Of a stretch of 64,000 nt of DNA, positions 19,564 to 36,747 are shown piece by piece. The DNA is taken from positions 31,834-95,833 of the forward strand of contig VGHE01000011.1 of the NCBI GenBank assembly GCA_016868315.1, given 5' to 3'. Origin of the DNA: Betaproteobacteria bacterium. Its GTDB lineage: Bacteria > Bdellovibrionota_B > Oligoflexia > Silvanigrellales > Silvanigrellaceae. The translations under genes and the position numbers were made by a program. Under the pieces are notes generated by a model. That model was not told where the DNA came from. It saw nothing but the letters and a program-made list of their open reading frames with translations, and ran no database searches. How positions within the stretch are numbered: position 1 is the stretch's first letter; each line of letters opens with the position of its first letter.

Positions 19564-20865
19564 ATGGAATCCTTGCTGCCACCCGGCTTCGGGCTCGGGG
19601 GTCACATCGAAACGACCCTGCGGGGCATATCCCCAGGACAGCTCCATGCAGCGGATTTTCAGGGTATCGTTCCAAATTCTGACAATGATTTTATTTTGCG
19701 GACACTTATCCTCTCAATGAACGGAGTGGGGGAGACCATTCCCAATCCAGCCGTGGGCTGCATCGCGCTTAAAAATGATGAAATTATAGGCTTTGGCGCC
19801 ACGGAAGCCTATGGTGGTCGGCATGCCGAACGGGTCGCGTTTGGCAATCTTAAGGACAACGGCCACTCCACTGAAAACTCGGCCGTTTATGTCACTCTCG
19901 AGCCCTGCTCGCACCATGGCAAGCAGCCACCGTGCTGCGAACTCTTTCAAAATGCGGGAGTCTCTCGAGTCGTCGTAGCGCTCGGTGACCCCAACCCTCT
20001 GGTGAATGGCCGGGGGCTGCGCTACCTCGAAGCTGCAGGCGCTCGAGTGCTCCTCTCTCACGGACAGTCAGCTGCAGCTGCATCCGCATGGCACTTGCCG
20101 TTTCTTGTGCAACAGACGCAGAATCGACCGCTCATTGTGGGAAAGTGGGCTCAAACCCTGGACGGCGTGGTTGCGGATTCGCACCACAACTCAAAATGGA
20201 TCACGGGTCCTGAGGCGCGGGCACATGGCCACTGGCTGCGTTTGAAATACGACATCACGGCCGTCGGGCTGGGAACACTCCTTGCAGACGCTCCGGCACT
20301 CACCGCACGTGACTGTTGGCTCCCCAACTCCCGTCAGCCACATGCATGTGTCATCGACCCCTTGGGTCACAGCATTCCCAGTGACAAACGTTTCCAGGAT
20401 GCACTGGCGAAGCTCGTTGCCGCAGCTGACAACCGCAAAGTTGCAGTGGTTTGTCCGCGCGAGCACGTAAAGGAATTGAAGGGGAAACTGCCCGCAGCGG
20501 TTTCACTGATTGGTTTTCCGCCTCCGAATGAAGCAGGTAGAATCGGTGAAATGCTCAAAAGCGTTTGGCAACAAGATGAGACAATCTCTTGGCTCGGACG
20601 CATGCCCCAAAGCGTTTACATCGAAGGCGGCTCAACGTTACTTTCGCTCATGATCGAAGCAGAAGCTCTCGATGCACTCCACGTTTTCATTGCACCCAAG
20701 CTGCTCGGTGGAGATGCACACCGCGTAGGCAATGGCACACACAAGTCACCACAACTTTCAATGGCAGCACATTTTGACATCCTCTCCACGTCTGTCCTTG
20801 GCGGTGATATGCTCCTCGAGCTGGTGTCAAAGCCGATCAAAGAATCATTTTTCGTCCGAGGTTGA
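19564..20865 (+). CDS. ribD: Bifunctional riboflavin biosynthesis protein RibD
   Basis: RibD deaminates the pyrimidine from GTP cyclohydrolase II and then reduces its ribose. The deaminase zinc site is intact: [10 protein letters not shown] (H, A, E) and [12 protein letters not shown] with both Cys ligands. The reductase half includes [27 protein letters not shown] and the NADPH-binding YIEGGSTLL. The annotated start gives 433 residues with about 40 extra at the N-terminus before NDFILRTL, where other RibD proteins begin; no ATG lies nearer, so a non-ATG start downstream cannot be excluded. The four genes that follow lie almost end to end. Confidence 0.93.
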
Positions 20866-20870
20866 GCGCA

Positions 20871-21953
20871 ATGTCGGAGCTGTCCCAAATATCAGGAACA
20901 AATGATTCAGCTGAGTCGGTCACAACACGCTTCAGAACGGACAAACTTACCCCACTGCTGTTGCGTTTTCTTAACCGACTTAAGCAGACCGGCAAATCAG
21001 GGCACACAATATCCGCGTATAGAAACGACCTTTCCATTTTCTGCCAGTTTCTTGTTGCCGAGAAAATCGATCCACAGGATTTTCAATCTCATTTTCAGGA
21101 GCGGTGGATAGCCTATTTGAGTTCGCGTGGCAGGAAGTCGCAGGCGAGCGTCCGACGCGCACTGATGAGTGTTCGAACATTTCTGCATTTCCTTGTGAAG
21201 GAAAAAATCATCGAGCGCTCACCCATGCTCGAGAGTAAGTCGCCGAGGCAACCCGCGCACGAGTTATTGACCGTGCGCCCGGAGCATTACTTTCGCCTTA
21301 TTCATACGCTGAGCGCGAAAGAAAGAGCTGAGGATCCCAAGGCCATTCGCGACCTGGCTCTCATCCAGTTGCTCGGAGAATGCGGATTAAAGGCAAGCGA
21401 AGTCGCACAAATGCGCTGGTCAGATATTCTGTTCGAAGGAAGTATCAGCGACCCACAAGCAAGCTTGACCCTGCGCGTTGCCGGACAAAACGAACGCATC
21501 GTCAAAGCGCATGCCGACGTTGCAGCGACTCTCTGGAAACTCAAGGAAGCCAGACAGCAGCTCAATCTGCCCGCATCACCCCAAGACAAACTGTTTTTCG
21601 GATTTCTAAACGTCAGCCGCCGTCTCAAGTCAGACGGTCTGCACCGGCACGGTGTAAAGTTCGTTGTTTATGAGGTATGTGAAGAGATTCTTGGGATTCC
21701 CTACAACTCTGAAAGCCTCCGCAACCATGCCATTCTGCGTTGGCTGGAATTGGGTATCAGCACCCAACAGGTTGCACAACTCGCGGGTTACTCTTCATTG
21801 AATTCACTCGAACGGTTCAAAATTAAGGCACGTGGCCAGCGTCGTCCGAAGCGTCAGACGAAAAAACAAAGCTCATCCGATCAGAAGCAGCCACGCACTG
21901 AATCGAAAGCAACCGGCTCCCCCCGCCCTTTGGGAGGAACGTCTAACCCATGA
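20871..21953 (+). CDS. Catalytically degenerate tyrosine recombinase (XerC/D-like fold)
   Basis: The 360 residues follow a Xer-type layout: an N-terminal SAM-like core-binding domain (TLKQTGKSGHTISAYRNDL region, about 25-115) and a catalytic-type domain (about 135-320), then a basic tail. Aligning by motif, almost every catalytic residue is changed: ArgI of GLRVSEL is Lys174 (GLKASEV); the hairpin Lys is in AGQNER rather than GKGNKER; the HxLR box is E281-S-L-R284; the next His is Tyr307 (AGYSSL); and the nucleophilic Tyr is Phe316 (ERFKI). Only ArgII remains. The reading frame is intact and packed in an operon, so it is probably expressed as a DNA-binding, non-recombining protein. The ATG at 20871 is preferred to a TTG at 20862. 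Confidence 0.85.
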   Translation: MSELSQISGTNDSAESVTTRFRTDKLTPLLLRFLNRLKQTGKSGHTISAYRNDLSIFCQFLVAEKIDPQDFQSHFQERWIAYLSSRGRKSQASVRRALMSVRTFLHFLVKEKIIERSPMLESKSPRQPAHELLTVRPEHYFRLIHTLSAKERAEDPKAIRDLALIQLLGECGLKASEVAQMRWSDILFEGSISDPQASLTLRVAGQNERIVKAHADVAATLWKLKEARQQLNLPASPQDKLFFGFLNVSRRLKSDGLHRHGVKFVVYEVCEEILGIPYNSESLRNHAILRWLELGISTQQVAQLAGYSSLNSLERFKIKARGQRRPKRQTKKQSSSDQKQPRTESKATGSPRPLGGTSNP

Positions 21954-22861
21954 TTCCGAACGTTATTGGAAGCTGCGAAATCATGGAATTGGTGGGTTCC
22001 GGCGGACTCGGAGAAGTCTACCGAGCCATCGACAAAAAGAACGGTCAGACAGTCGCCCTGAAGCGGCTTCACGACAAATATCAAAACAATCCAAAGCTGC
22101 TCGGACTCTTCCATAAAGAAATTCTGATGCACGCGCAGGTATCCCACAAGCACTGCGTGAAATTTATTGCTGCAGACCTCACTCCACCGCACGCACACAT
22201 CGTGACCGAATTCATCGAAGGCATAAACTGCCACTATCTGTTAAAGAAAATCGGCCCGATTCCGCCACTTATTGCCTGCTCGATTGTGCTCGACCTGCTG
22301 CAAGGGCTCGACCACATTCACTGTCTTGACATGATCCACTCCGACCTCACCCCAGCCAACATCATTCTTGAGGTGACCGGCCGAACCGTGCTGGCAGACT
22401 TCGGGCTCAGTTGCAAACAGGACATTGAAAACTATGAAGGCATGACGGTTGGTACACCAGGATACCAAGCGCCGGAGCGCCTCACACACGACCCCATGAC
22501 TCGGGCTGCAGACATTTACAATGCAGGCATTATATTGCACGAGATGTTGATTGGAGACAGGCTATTTGCCAATGCAGCTCCGAAAGAAGTGCTGGCAGCC
22601 ATGAAGAATCTTCCCCAACGTTTGCCAAGCACAGGCGACGCGGAGGTGGATGAATATCTCAAGAAAATGCTGAAGACCGCTCTGCACATGAATCCGCAGA
22701 AGCGCTTCCCCTCTGCGCGGGATTTCATGTTTGCGCTCTACCAAGTCCTGAAAGCATACGACATCCGGTACACACGCCGCGCGATTCTACAATGGATGAT
22801 TGACGTAAAGCTCACAACGCTACCACCTGCGGAACCCAAACAAACAATCTATATCCGATGA
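21950..22861 (+). CDS. Serine/threonine protein kinase, soluble
   Basis: A 303-residue Hanks-type kinase with little beyond the kinase domain and no membrane segment. Visible motifs: glycine loop GSGGLGEVY, K38 in VALKRL, E57 in the C-helix, catalytic loop MIHSDLTPAN with D132, ADFGLS with D150, and GTPGYQAPERL. The usual HRD is HSD, so the enzyme lacks the Arg that couples activation-loop phosphorylation to activity and may be active without it. The start overlaps the stop of the recombinase-like gene (ATGA) and the stop overlaps the next start in the same way, which ties the three genes together. Substrates are unknown; the neighbour pseudo-recombinase is one candidate. Confidence 0.92.
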   Translation: MIPNVIGSCEIMELVGSGGLGEVYRAIDKKNGQTVALKRLHDKYQNNPKLLGLFHKEILMHAQVSHKHCVKFIAADLTPPHAHIVTEFIEGINCHYLLKKIGPIPPLIACSIVLDLLQGLDHIHCLDMIHSDLTPANIILEVTGRTVLADFGLSCKQDIENYEGMTVGTPGYQAPERLTHDPMTRAADIYNAGIILHEMLIGDRLFANAAPKEVLAAMKNLPQRLPSTGDAEVDEYLKKMLKTALHMNPQKRFPSARDFMFALYQVLKAYDIRYTRRAILQWMIDVKLTTLPPAEPKQTIYIR

Positions 22862-23655
22862 GCCCTGCAAATAAACCTTTCCGGATTGTTTCGCTTGTAC
22901 CAAGCCTGACAGAGACCCTGTGTCACTTTAGACTCGAGTCTGCGCTTGTGGGCTGCACAAGTTTTTGCGTTGAACCAAAGTCACTGCGCAACACGGTTCC
23001 TTCTGTGGGCGGCACGAAAGATGCAGATCTTGAGCGAATAGTTGCACTCAAGCCAACTCATATTGTGACTAATCGCGAGGAGAATACCGAGGTTCTTCTT
23101 AACTCCCTGCGTGAGAAATCTTCGACGCATGGATTCACACTGATAGAAACGTTCCTTGAATTCCCAGAAGACAATTTTCAGCTTATCGCTCATCTTGGGC
23201 AATGCTTTTCCTTCGAGCTTGAGTCCCAGAAATGGTGCGCAGAACAACGTCAGCGACTCGACACTCTGCGCACTCTCATGACTGCGAAAAATTCTTTCCG
23301 CTTTGCTTATTTCATCTGGATGAAACCCTGGATGTGTGCCGGCCATCAGACCTACATTTCCAGATGCATTGAGCTCATTGGTGGACAAAATTTAATCATG
23401 ACAGGAACCGAACTGAACGAACGCTATCCTGAGCTCAGAGCCACAGATGCACGCCTTCATGAGGCTGATTGCCTGTTCTTTTCATCTGAGCCATTCCCCT
23501 TTAAGAATCGTCACATCGAAGCTTTTCAACAAGAGGCCGGAAGAAAATTCAAATTTCTTAAGGTCGATGGACAGGCACTGAGTTGGTATGGCAGTAGATT
23601 TGCAGTCACTCTCACAGAACTGGAGTCGATGCGTGTTCAAATCGAAAAAGTATAG
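22858..23655 (+). CDS. BtuF/helical-backbone metal receptor-like protein without signal peptide
   Basis: The 265 residues match the two-lobe cobalamin/iron-siderophore binding fold: IVSLVPSLTETLCHF at the N-terminus, VGCTSFC, VPSVGGTKDADLERIVALKPTHIV, and in the second lobe MCAGHQTYISRCIELIGGQN. In transport systems this protein is secreted or lipid-anchored, but here no signal peptide is present, so it should stay in the cytosol. No ABC permease or ATPase is nearby. The function may be metal or cofactor binding linked to the kinase upstream, which it overlaps by ATGA; this is inference. Confidence 0.8.
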   Translation: MSPANKPFRIVSLVPSLTETLCHFRLESALVGCTSFCVEPKSLRNTVPSVGGTKDADLERIVALKPTHIVTNREENTEVLLNSLREKSSTHGFTLIETFLEFPEDNFQLIAHLGQCFSFELESQKWCAEQRQRLDTLRTLMTAKNSFRFAYFIWMKPWMCAGHQTYISRCIELIGGQNLIMTGTELNERYPELRATDARLHEADCLFFSSEPFPFKNRHIEAFQQEAGRKFKFLKVDGQALSWYGSRFAVTLTELESMRVQIEKV

Positions 23656-24238
23656 TTTCCGATCCACTCTTGTCGTAGCAGCCTCAGCCTGCGCTTTGTT
23701 CTCGGCTCAAAAAATCGCAGCCCAGAACTCTGCACCTACCGAGGCGTCGGTCTCGTCTGCGCGCGAGTTGAAGTCAGCCGCTGCAGTTCCAACTTACACA
23801 GTTGTCGCTTGCAACGACGGTGATACCTGTCGGCTAAAAAGTGCAGACAACACCCAAATCAAAGTGCGTCTTGTTGGAATCGATGCACCTGAAATGTCGA
23901 AAAAGCGCGGCAAGAAAAAAGGTGAAGGTCAACCTGGGGGCGAGGAAGCAAAAGCATACCTCAATAATATGGTTGTCGGAAAAACGGTTTCGCTCCGCTC
24001 CTATGGCGTCGACATGTACGGCCGTAACCTCGCAGAGATCATCATCAATAATGAATCTGTTAACATAAAAATGGTGTCCGATGGATGGGCTGAAGTCTAT
24101 CGAGGAAAGAAGTCCGGTGGCTTAGATCTTTCCCCCTTCGAAGCGGCCGAGCACGATGCGCGCAAGTCCAAACGAGGCATCTGGGCGTTGCCGGACTACG
24201 AAAGTCCAAAAGACTGGCGAAAAAAGAACAACAACTAA
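23633..24238 (+). CDS. Secreted thermonuclease-family nuclease (SNase)
   Basis: A GTG at 23633, seven bases after GGAG, gives 201 residues with a clean signal peptide (MFKSKKYSFRSTLVVAASAC, cut near AQN). The staphylococcal nuclease domain has CNDGDTCRL, VRLVGIDAPEMS with catalytic Arg, Asp and Glu, and YGRNLAEII with the second Arg, followed by GWAEVYRG and ARKSKRGIW. It should degrade DNA or RNA in the periplasm or outside the cell. The start overlaps the previous gene by 23 bases; a frame starting at 23588 has no ribosome site. Between NDGDTCRL and the end there is a Lys/Gly-rich insert (KKRGKKKGEGQPGG) typical of the longer members. Confidence 0.9.
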   Translation: MFKSKKYSFRSTLVVAASACALFSAQKIAAQNSAPTEASVSSARELKSAAAVPTYTVVACNDGDTCRLKSADNTQIKVRLVGIDAPEMSKKRGKKKGEGQPGGEEAKAYLNNMVVGKTVSLRSYGVDMYGRNLAEIIINNESVNIKMVSDGWAEVYRGKKSGGLDLSPFEAAEHDARKSKRGIWALPDYESPKDWRKKNNN

Positions 24239-34308: not shown

Positions 34309-36747
34309 CTAGGAATGCATTCCACGTTCACCCGAGAGCACCTGGCGCGGCTTTCCGGCCACGTCACTCGGTCCCACAAGACCATCTTTGACCATTCTGT
34401 CCATCAAACGTGCAGCGCGGTTGTAGCCAATCCTGAAATTACGCTGCAGGCTAGACGTACTGACGGTTCCCGAGCTGACCGCAAAATCGACGGCGCGGTC
34501 GTAGAGATCATTTTCATCCAACTGGTTTCCATCAACACCCAACTCGTCAATTTTATCGCCTTTGGCTCCGTCATTTTTTTGGCTGATTTGCTGTGCGTTT
34601 CTTTGAACCGCAGCCATTGTTTCGTTGTCATAGCGGGTCGGATACAACTGCCGCAGACGCTCACTCAGCTGGTTGATCTCACGGTCACCGATATAGGCAC
34701 CATGCCCACGAACAATTCGATTGGTTCCCGGAGGCAGGAACAGCATGTCGCCCCGTCCGAGCAGTTTCTCAGCCCCCACACTCTCAATGATTGTGCGGCT
34801 GTCATGCTTGGAGGCCACTTGGAATGAAATGCGGCAAGGGAGATTGGCCTTAATGACACCTGTGATGACGTCCACGCTTGGCCGCTGGGTTGCAAGAATT
34901 AAATGGATGCCAGCAGCGCGAGCCTTCTGTGCCAGGCGTTGGATGGAGTCTTCGATGTCTTTAGGTGCAGTCATCATGAGATCACAAAGCTCATCGATCA
35001 CCACCACAATGTAGGGCAACGCTGCTGGAGTTTCGCCTTCGAGTTGCTCAACGGTCAGACGGTTAGCCTGCACCTCAGTATTGAAAGCGGCAATATTGCG
35101 CACGGCAGCCTTGCGCATGAGTTGATAACGACGTTCCATTTCATCAATAGCCCAGCGCAACGCACCTGCAGCTTTGGATGGATCGGTGACCACCGGCATG
35201 AGCAAATGACCGATACCGTCGTAATTGGAGAGTTCAAGCATCTTGGGGTCGACAAGAATAAAACGCACCTGCTCGGGTGTGCGCGCCATCATCAGGCTGA
35301 GGAGAGTCACATTTATCCCCACTGACTTTCCAGAGCCTGTCGCACCAGCAATCAAAAGGTGTGGCATCGTGCTCAAGTCAGCGACCAAAGCGGAGCCATC
35401 GACATTTTTTCCAAGAGCCATCGGCAACGGCGAAGCAAGCTCCCGCAAGGAGCTGTTCTCCATAACATCGCGCAACGCAACCGTCTCACGGATGGGGGCA
35501 GGAACCTCGATACCGATGGTGCTTTTGCCGGGCTGCGGAGCCATAAGCACACTTTGAGCCTTCAGTCCAAGCGCAAGATCATCTTGCAGCGAAAGAACTT
35601 TGGTTACCTTAATTCCCTCTGCCGGCTCAAACTCATGCACATTGACCACTGGACCCGGCTGACTCTTCACAACACGTCCTGTCACACCGAAAGTTCCCAG
35701 CTTGGTGGCGAGCAAATGAGCCTGGCTTTCGAGGCTCTTATGAACTGCCATGGGATCACCCTGTGCCGATTGCCCCGCGGGAAGCATTCCAAGCAGCTCG
35801 GAATATGTTTCTTTTGAGACCGCATCGGGAGCTGCGGCCAGACCCGTTGAACGCTGAGGCATGCGGGATGCTGCAGATGGTTGTGTTGGGGTGGGGGATG
35901 CGTGAGCGGCCTTTTCGCTGACCACTGCATTTTTCAGTGGCTGGCTCTGCACACTGCGCATCGCAATCGGCTCATGCGGTCCGCGCTTATCCTCAATCGG
36001 AGTTTCGCGAGCAAATCCAGGCGCAGTAAGCACAGATGCATCATCGTCATCGGCTGCAACCACAAATCGGTTCGGCTCGGAGCGCGCAGGCTCTTGGGCA
36101 ATTTCTTTCTTGCCTTTTTCTTCAACAGCGGCAGCGATCTCTCGCAGTCTGCTCCAAGGCATACGCCCCACCATCCACACAACAGACGTCACTGGATTCA
36201 CGCCCAAGCAGAGTGGAAGGCTCGCAAACAGACCAAGACCGAGAATAATGCGGACACCCGAGGCTCCAAAGGTCGTGGTCATCATCCCAACTACTGTTTG
36301 TCCGACCCAACCACCCACAGGGAATCCGACCTGCATCAAAGCAAACTCTTCTCGGAATGCGGCCAGAAAACCCAAAAGACACGCAACCAACTGTGGATAT
36401 CCAAGAAGACGCATTTTCCAGCGGGACCGGGGGCGTGGGCGCTGAAAAAGCTGCAATGCATGCACAAGCGCAACCGTGCTGAAAATGTAGGCTCCGACGC
36501 CAAGCAGTTGAATGAGCCACTCAGCGAGATTCGCACCAAATCCGCCCAATAGATTTTTAAACGTTGAGCCGCTGGGCATGAATGACGTCAAAACAAAATG
36601 GAACGACGATGCATCCTGTGGGTTGAAGGAAAACACCGACAGGCAAACAATCAGCGCAACAGAGAGTGCAACGAGAGAAAAATAATCACTCACGTACACC
36701 GAGTTCTTTTTTGAATCAGAATTCCAATCTAAACTGAAACGACCCAT
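34309..36747 (-). CDS. ftsK: DNA translocase FtsK
   Basis: FtsK pumps the chromosome through the closing septum and helps dimer resolution. The 812 residues have four to five membrane helices in the first 190, a variable Pro/Ala/Glu linker (about 200-320), the alpha/beta motor with Walker A GATGSGKSVG, Walker B PYIVVVIDELCDLMM, and ATQRPSVDVITG, and a C-terminal winged helix (gamma domain, DLYDRAVDFAVSSGTVSTSSLQRNFRIGYNRAARLMDRM without the last few residues shown) that reads KOPS sites. AGGGG precedes the ATG. It is divergent from the EI24-like gene with only 33 bases between starts, and is followed by the TPR lipoprotein and rodZ. Confidence 0.96.
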   Translation of the reverse strand: MGRFSLDWNSDSKKNSVYVSDYFSLVALSVALIVCLSVFSFNPQDASSFHFVLTSFMPSGSTFKNLLGGFGANLAEWLIQLLGVGAYIFSTVALVHALQLFQRPRPRSRWKMRLLGYPQLVACLLGFLAAFREEFALMQVGFPVGGWVGQTVVGMMTTTFGASGVRIILGLGLFASLPLCLGVNPVTSVVWMVGRMPWSRLREIAAAVEEKGKKEIAQEPARSEPNRFVVAADDDDASVLTAPGFARETPIEDKRGPHEPIAMRSVQSQPLKNAVVSEKAAHASPTPTQPSAASRMPQRSTGLAAAPDAVSKETYSELLGMLPAGQSAQGDPMAVHKSLESQAHLLATKLGTFGVTGRVVKSQPGPVVNVHEFEPAEGIKVTKVLSLQDDLALGLKAQSVLMAPQPGKSTIGIEVPAPIRETVALRDVMENSSLRELASPLPMALGKNVDGSALVADLSTMPHLLIAGATGSGKSVGINVTLLSLMMARTPEQVRFILVDPKMLELSNYDGIGHLLMPVVTDPSKAAGALRWAIDEMERRYQLMRKAAVRNIAAFNTEVQANRLTVEQLEGETPAALPYIVVVIDELCDLMMTAPKDIEDSIQRLAQKARAAGIHLILATQRPSVDVITGVIKANLPCRISFQVASKHDSRTIIESVGAEKLLGRGDMLFLPPGTNRIVRGHGAYIGDREINQLSERLRQLYPTRYDNETMAAVQRNAQQISQKNDGAKGDKIDELGVDGNQLDENDLYDRAVDFAVSSGTVSTSSLQRNFRIGYNRAARLMDRMVKDGLVGPSDVAGKPRQVLSGERGMHS

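Follow-up and report, generated by a model that had tools for sequence, protein, structure and literature searches.

A catalytically dead Xer-like tyrosine recombinase conserved across the class Oligoflexia

The window analysed here, a 64,000-nucleotide stretch of contig VGHE01000011.1 from a member of the Silvanigrellaceae, carries a gene whose product resembles the Xer recombinases but appears to have replaced nearly every residue needed for recombination. The gene overlaps a Ser/Thr kinase gene, which in turn overlaps a gene for a BtuF-like receptor. A sequence-only reading of this locus proposed that the combination may be a regulatory module and not a mobile element. The locus therefore raises the question of what a recombinase that cannot recombine is kept for, and whether its immediate neighbours are part of the answer.

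The 360-residue frame is open, as that reading had claimed, and its product (pseudo-Xer) matches two Pfam domains above their cut-offs, Phage_int_SAM_1 (PF02899, 45 bits) and Phage_integrase (PF00589, 34.9 bits). The best NCBIfam families are XerD (TIGR02225, 91.6 bits) and XerC (TIGR02224, 84.8 bits). These scores are far below the curated cut-offs of 329.6 bits for XerD and 335.15 bits for XerC, and the protein is an equivalog of neither. The kinase gene is identified by a Pkinase match of 158.5 bits and the BtuF-like gene by a Peripla_BP_2 match of 51.6 bits; the latter product also scores 127 bits against the TroA-like receptor model NF038402 (cut-off 30). The BtuF-like protein had been described as signal-less, and no signal sequence is evident at its N-terminus, so it is probably a cytoplasmic copy of a periplasmic-binding fold. 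Both ATGA overlaps are present in the window (Table 1), where the thermonuclease gene is followed by uvrC on the opposite strand.

Table 1. Positions in the window of the pseudo-Xer gene, its key codons and nearby genes
Feature	Position	Strand	Remarks
ribD, upstream of pseudo-Xer	19714..20865	+	order ribD - pseudo-Xer in most Silvanigrellales loci
Pseudo-Xer, 360 aa, dead tyrosine-recombinase fold	20871..21953	+	open frame; Pfam, alignment, model, tree
ArgI-position codon, K174 (XerD R148)	21390..21392	+	Lys in 29/29 orthologues
R259-H260 codons (XerD R220-Q221, recognition helix)	21645..21650	+	invariant 29/29; first residues of the signature RHG[LVI]KFxxY[EQ]
E281-S-L-R284 codons, former HxxR box	21711..21722	+	H to E in 27/29; ArgII retained in 29/29
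Y307 codon, second His position (XerD H270)	21789..21791	+	His in 0/29 orthologues
F316 codon, nucleophile position (XerD Y279)	21816..21818	+	Phe 13, His 14, Leu 1, Tyr 1 (n = 29)
C-terminal tail, basic, predicted disordered	21819..21950	+	13 K/R and 2 D/E in 44 residues; replaces exchange helix
Ser/Thr kinase domain protein, cytoplasmic	21950..22861	+	start overlaps pseudo-Xer stop by ATGA
TroA/BtuF-like helical backbone metal receptor	22858..23655	+	start overlaps kinase stop by ATGA
Thermonuclease (SNase), downstream	23588..24238	+	syntenic in every Silvanigrellales locus reaching that far
FtsK, 812 aa, clear gamma domain	34309-36747	-	about 12 kb away from pseudo-Xer

The state of the active site was established by aligning the window protein with Escherichia coli XerD and XerC (from NC_000913). 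XerD residues R148, K172, H244, H270 and Y279 correspond to K174, A204, E281, Y307 and F316, respectively, and R247 is retained as R284. All of the substitutions named in the sequence-only reading agree with this alignment. Of the seven-residue core of tyrosine recombinases (R, D/E, K, H, R, H/W, Y), the window protein retains just E177 and R284. The alignment itself is sound, as shown by 16 further Xer-like proteins of this bacterial family, each of which retains the full set at the six catalytic positions.

Loss of the catalytic residues recurs in all 29 aligned orthologues (13 from Silvanigrellales and 16 others), and the substitutions are of the same kind throughout, so the pattern is not a matter of chance. 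No orthologue carries a complete R-K-H-R-H/W-Y set, and none qualifies as an active tyrosine recombinase. The ArgI column is invariably Lys and the HisII column is Glu in all but two sequences; the HisIII column holds Leu or Tyr, and the hairpin Lys survives in 2/29. All 13 Silvanigrellales proteins have Phe at the nucleophile position, which in the 16 others is occupied by His (14), Leu (1) or Tyr (1). Together with ArgII, the Glu equivalent to XerD E151 is retained in every orthologue. Thus, K174, E177, E281 and R284 form fixed non-catalytic columns, while the remaining active-site columns drift. A compensating set of catalytic residues elsewhere in the chain is not apparent from the alignment or from structural superposition. 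Rebuilding of the active site around Y267 or Y50 was considered and is thought unlikely, since the nearly invariant Y267 lies in the recognition helix and Y50, in the N-terminal domain, is also present in XerC, XerD and all other aligned Xer-like proteins.

Conservation extends to positions concerned with DNA recognition. The pair R259-H260 is Arg-His in every orthologue and falls at the start of the helix that holds R220 and Q221 in XerD, two determinants of site binding. In total, 21 columns are invariant over 31 orthologue sequences.

Pseudo-Xer also retains the recombinase fold. The AlphaFold2 model, for which 31 orthologues served as input, has a mean pLDDT of 83.8, and most of residues 21-318 reach at least 85. 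From about residue 20 to residue 322 this model superposes on the Cre-lox and XerH-difH complexes (VIA Z 18-20), with an rmsd of about 3.5-4.4 over about 260-282 residues. Superposition on XerA gives a Z of 20.5, the domains being arranged differently (rmsd 14). Pfam matches and model both place the protein among the tyrosine recombinases, with a SAM-like N-terminal domain and the catalytic-domain fold.

In recombinases, the helix that follows the nucleophilic tyrosine is swapped between subunits to make cyclic inter-subunit contacts. The pseudo-Xer family lacks this exchange helix of the active enzymes. The chain stops 1-6 residues past the Tyr column in 8 of the 16 orthologues from outside Silvanigrellales, and the other 8 have differing tails. 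In Silvanigrellales, both model and sequence place a Lys/Arg-rich, low-confidence tail where the exchange helix would be. With this helix lost or replaced, assembly of the usual synaptic tetramer is unlikely.

Pseudo-Xer is not a peculiarity of the window. Profile searches find an orthologue, usually a single strong match in each case, in 53 of the 58 genomes of the phylum-level group and in 38 of the 39 good assemblies (completeness at least 90%, contamination at most 5%). Scanning 84,980 species for the signature RHG[LVI]KFxxY[EQ] yields 34 confirmed loci, a search that depends on this motif and that motif-less relatives elsewhere would escape. Loci with informative names belong to Silvanigrella, Fluviispira, Spirobacillus, Oligoflexales, Oligoflexus and Pseudobacteriovorax. 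A few come from metagenome-assembled genomes labelled Myxococcota, Zetaproteobacteria or Bdellovibrio, some of which (L082 and L086, for example) are contigs that the phylum search places in the window's own class. No viral relatives were found among IMG/VR contigs at the sensitivity used, and a phage origin with living viral relatives was set aside on this ground. The main text of genome papers on the group or phylum (PMC12321486, PMC11656739) is silent on Xer proteins and recombinases.

The dead proteins share a single origin in a maximum likelihood tree that also includes XerC, XerD, further Xer proteins and the remaining tyrosine recombinases encoded by these genomes. All 35 fall on one side of a branch with an SH-aLRT of 99, and they group with neither XerC nor XerD. 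Their clade has two main branches, consisting of Silvanigrellales and the remaining orthologues. As K174 and E281 are common to the two branches, the pattern is most simply read as a single ancestral loss that was then inherited vertically. Values of dN/dS range from 0.008 to 0.028 for the pairs from genus g5 with unsaturated dS; in pairs from the window's own genus, synonymous sites are saturated. Pseudo-Xer thus behaves as a vertically inherited core gene of the class Oligoflexia under strong purifying selection, and not as a mobile one, in agreement with the sequence-only reading, which had also proposed that conserved loss in many species with low dN/dS would support a functional pseudo-recombinase. 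The catalytic losses by themselves would fit a decaying or neutral Xer relic without function, but low dN/dS, retention in nearly all good genomes and the invariant columns rule out a relic gene almost entirely.

The kinase and the BtuF-like protein have a much narrower distribution. Silvanigrellales loci share the order rpsO (opposite strand), ribD, pseudo-Xer, thermonuclease and uvrC (opposite strand), with the kinase gene and then the BtuF-like gene sometimes present after pseudo-Xer. In genus g5 an insertion separates ribD from pseudo-Xer; it spans about 1-2 kb at L036, L038 and L041, and some of these genomes carry a further stretch between the thermonuclease gene and uvrC. The kinase gene adjoins pseudo-Xer at six of the 13 loci (the window, G001-G004 and G014), and none of the eight g5 genomes, seven of them well assembled, contains a match to it. 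The BtuF-like gene adjoins at 8 of 12 loci, the contig of the thirteenth ending first, and is missing at G004, G009, G010 and G014. Outside Silvanigrellales, neither gene lies beside pseudo-Xer at any of loci L072-L098.

It is quite improbable, then, that kinase, BtuF-like protein and dead Xer constitute one signalling module. The ATGA overlaps in the window, the identical gene order in G002 and G003 and the recurring kinase adjacency within Silvanigrellales favor this proposal. However, g5 genomes lack the kinase, four loci lack the BtuF-like gene and orthologues elsewhere lack both as neighbours. This comparison of gene order rules out the module as a defining feature: the combination is a lineage-specific arrangement, a local accretion around a much older, class-wide protein. 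What survives of the proposed regulatory module is a dead Xer with its recognition residues kept, and not the two partners that were to define it.

In the other orders, pseudo-Xer is flanked by a divergent ntrY/ntrX cluster on one side and followed by tadA on the other. At L073-L098 the divergent cluster encodes a 255-residue protein without a Pfam match, NtrY, NtrX, a DUF4388 protein and a SpoU-type methyltransferase. Seven loci (L076, L077, L080, L085, L088, L089 and L097) show a possible ATGA-type overlap between the pseudo-Xer stop and the tadA start, an arrangement that suggests translational coupling to this tRNA adenosine deaminase gene. Since the operon partner differs between orders, genomic context does not name a regulon.

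Other clues to function may be sought in the recombination systems of the same genomes. A XerD above the curated cut-off is found in 0 of 56 genomes, the best match outside the pseudo-Xer family scoring 177 bits. Many genomes encode other tyrosine recombinases, which are scattered and long-branched in the tree. Assembly-wide searches (E 0.01 or better) of G019, G027 and G030 detect no Phage_integrase domain besides the dead one, which is again the sole such domain in G042 (87% complete). G057 has one weak extra match, and G037 and G040 have only integrase fragments in addition. A full-length intact tyrosine recombinase is lacking in G030 as well as in G037, G039 and G040, which belong to the same genus. 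As these assemblies are 87-97% complete, a single genome proves little; the genus-mates of G030 agree with it, however. Silvanigrellaceae, for their part, have two or more intact Xer-like proteins of 330-400 residues (L044, L046-L050, L053-L060, L188-L196). These form a tree cluster of their own, separate from XerC and XerD, and may be the enzymes that resolve chromosome dimers in this family.

One explanation for this pattern is that XerCD-dif recombination was lost and that the dead Xer binds a diverged dif-like site as a non-catalytic terminus factor, aiding FtsK in positioning or decatenation. The lack of XerD matches above cut-off would fit, as would the presence of FtsK with a gamma domain in 44 of the 56 genomes, including G030 with its lack of an active tyrosine recombinase. 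A dif site has been reported in Bdellovibrio, which belongs to another class of the phylum (PMC2731167), so that Oligoflexia may plausibly have lost the canonical system. Against this, most f5 genomes and both f8 genomes lack the gamma domain yet keep the dead Xer. XerD contacts FtsKγ through I127, E184, Y187, W188 and H257 (PMC5052618), and these residues are mostly not conserved in pseudo-Xer; just E184 is found in a bare majority (16/29). FtsKγ was rejected as a partner for these two reasons. Matches to one canonical-type degenerate dif pattern with at most one mismatch, a search that would miss diverged sites and carries little weight, do not exceed a reversed control in the 56 genomes. 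A terminus factor of this kind is unlikely. The broader version, in which the whole class has lost canonical XerCD-dif, handles chromosome dimers in some other way and keeps the dead Xer as a non-cutting DNA-binding factor at the terminus, appears improbable as well.

Alternatively, pseudo-Xer could serve as the dead subunit of a heterotetramer with an active Xer, controlling when its partner cuts. Silvanigrellaceae do have intact Xer-like proteins that could fill the partner's place, but an active tyrosine recombinase is absent from the G019, G027 and G030 assemblies, those found elsewhere in the class are scattered and long-branched, and the exchange helix, on which cyclic contacts between subunits depend, has been lost. 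We regard such a partnership as very unlikely.

Several characterized proteins offer parallels. MrpR (YopR), the master repressor of the Bacillus prophage SPbeta, has a recombinase fold without recombinase activity and has been shown experimentally to bind DNA (PMC10516654); SroF (PDB 9rd5) is a related phage repressor. Pseudo-Xer likewise combines a recombinase fold with loss of catalytic residues, and its DNA binding is predicted. However, MrpR is phage-borne and retains the Tyr and 3/7 core residues, whereas pseudo-Xer is a chromosomal family, found class-wide in Oligoflexia and left with 2/7 (Glu and ArgII). In structure, too, MrpR matches less well (Z 13-14, rmsd about 17) than Cre and XerH do. 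Because pseudo-Xer is not phage-borne and is structurally nearer to Cre and Xer, it is not classed as a member of the MrpR family, and its origin is probably independent.

Catalytic loss with long-term conservation is also seen in eukaryotes. The crypton-derived DUF3504 proteins (KCTD1, ZMYM, QRICH1) and yeast Gcr1 and Cbf2/Ndc10 are domesticated tyrosine recombinases without catalytic residues (PMC3212892). These proteins differ from pseudo-Xer in being transposon-derived, in often being fused to other domains and in having lost ArgII, which is invariant here. In Pseudomonas aeruginosa, the effects of deleting xerC are largely absent in a Tyr-to-Phe mutant, hinting at a non-catalytic regulatory role (PMC8609362), although, unlike pseudo-Xer, this XerC is an ordinary recombinase with its activity intact. 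Similarity to E. coli XerC and XerD themselves consists of the best curated sequence match, the two-domain fold, the retained Glu and ArgII and the equivalence of R259 with XerD R220. Pseudo-Xer departs from them in its lack of ArgI, Lys, both His residues, Tyr, the exchange helix and the conserved FtsKγ contacts.

The explanation that we favor, and consider probable, is that a Xer protein was domesticated once, long ago, as a sequence-specific DNA-binding protein that does not recombine and is probably regulatory, acting in the manner of MrpR but with a separate origin. A Xer-type recombinase would have undergone this change in a single ancestor and then descended vertically in Oligoflexia. 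To judge from its fold and conserved residues, pseudo-Xer would bind DNA as a monomer or dimer, clamping around a specific site in the way of single Xer and Cre subunits, with neither DNA cutting nor assembly of a recombining tetramer. Its effect would come from occupying the site, transcription regulation being the most likely role and an architectural or chromosome-segregation role less likely. Two search results count against this account: a conserved inverted repeat occurs upstream of pseudo-Xer at 2 of 23 loci outside Silvanigrellales, compared with 2.8 expected from shuffles, and the canonical dif-like pattern does not exceed its control. In Silvanigrellales, where the basic tail stands in for the exchange helix, the translationally coupled Ser/Thr kinase of some genera might conceivably modulate the protein.

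A class-wide, strongly conserved and catalytically dead Xer is a larger finding than the kinase/BtuF arrangement that first drew attention to the locus. Automatic annotation is expected to label these genes as tyrosine-type recombinases from the family models that they match, a label that hides the case. Several Oligoflexia genomes apparently lack a working tyrosine recombinase, which raises the question of how their chromosome dimers are resolved. The known dead tyrosine recombinases with a DNA-binding role come from one phage group and from domesticated transposons of eukaryotes. If the favored explanation is true, the Xer fold has been recruited here as a core cellular DNA-binding protein, chromosomal, near-universal and single-copy, that marks an entire bacterial class.
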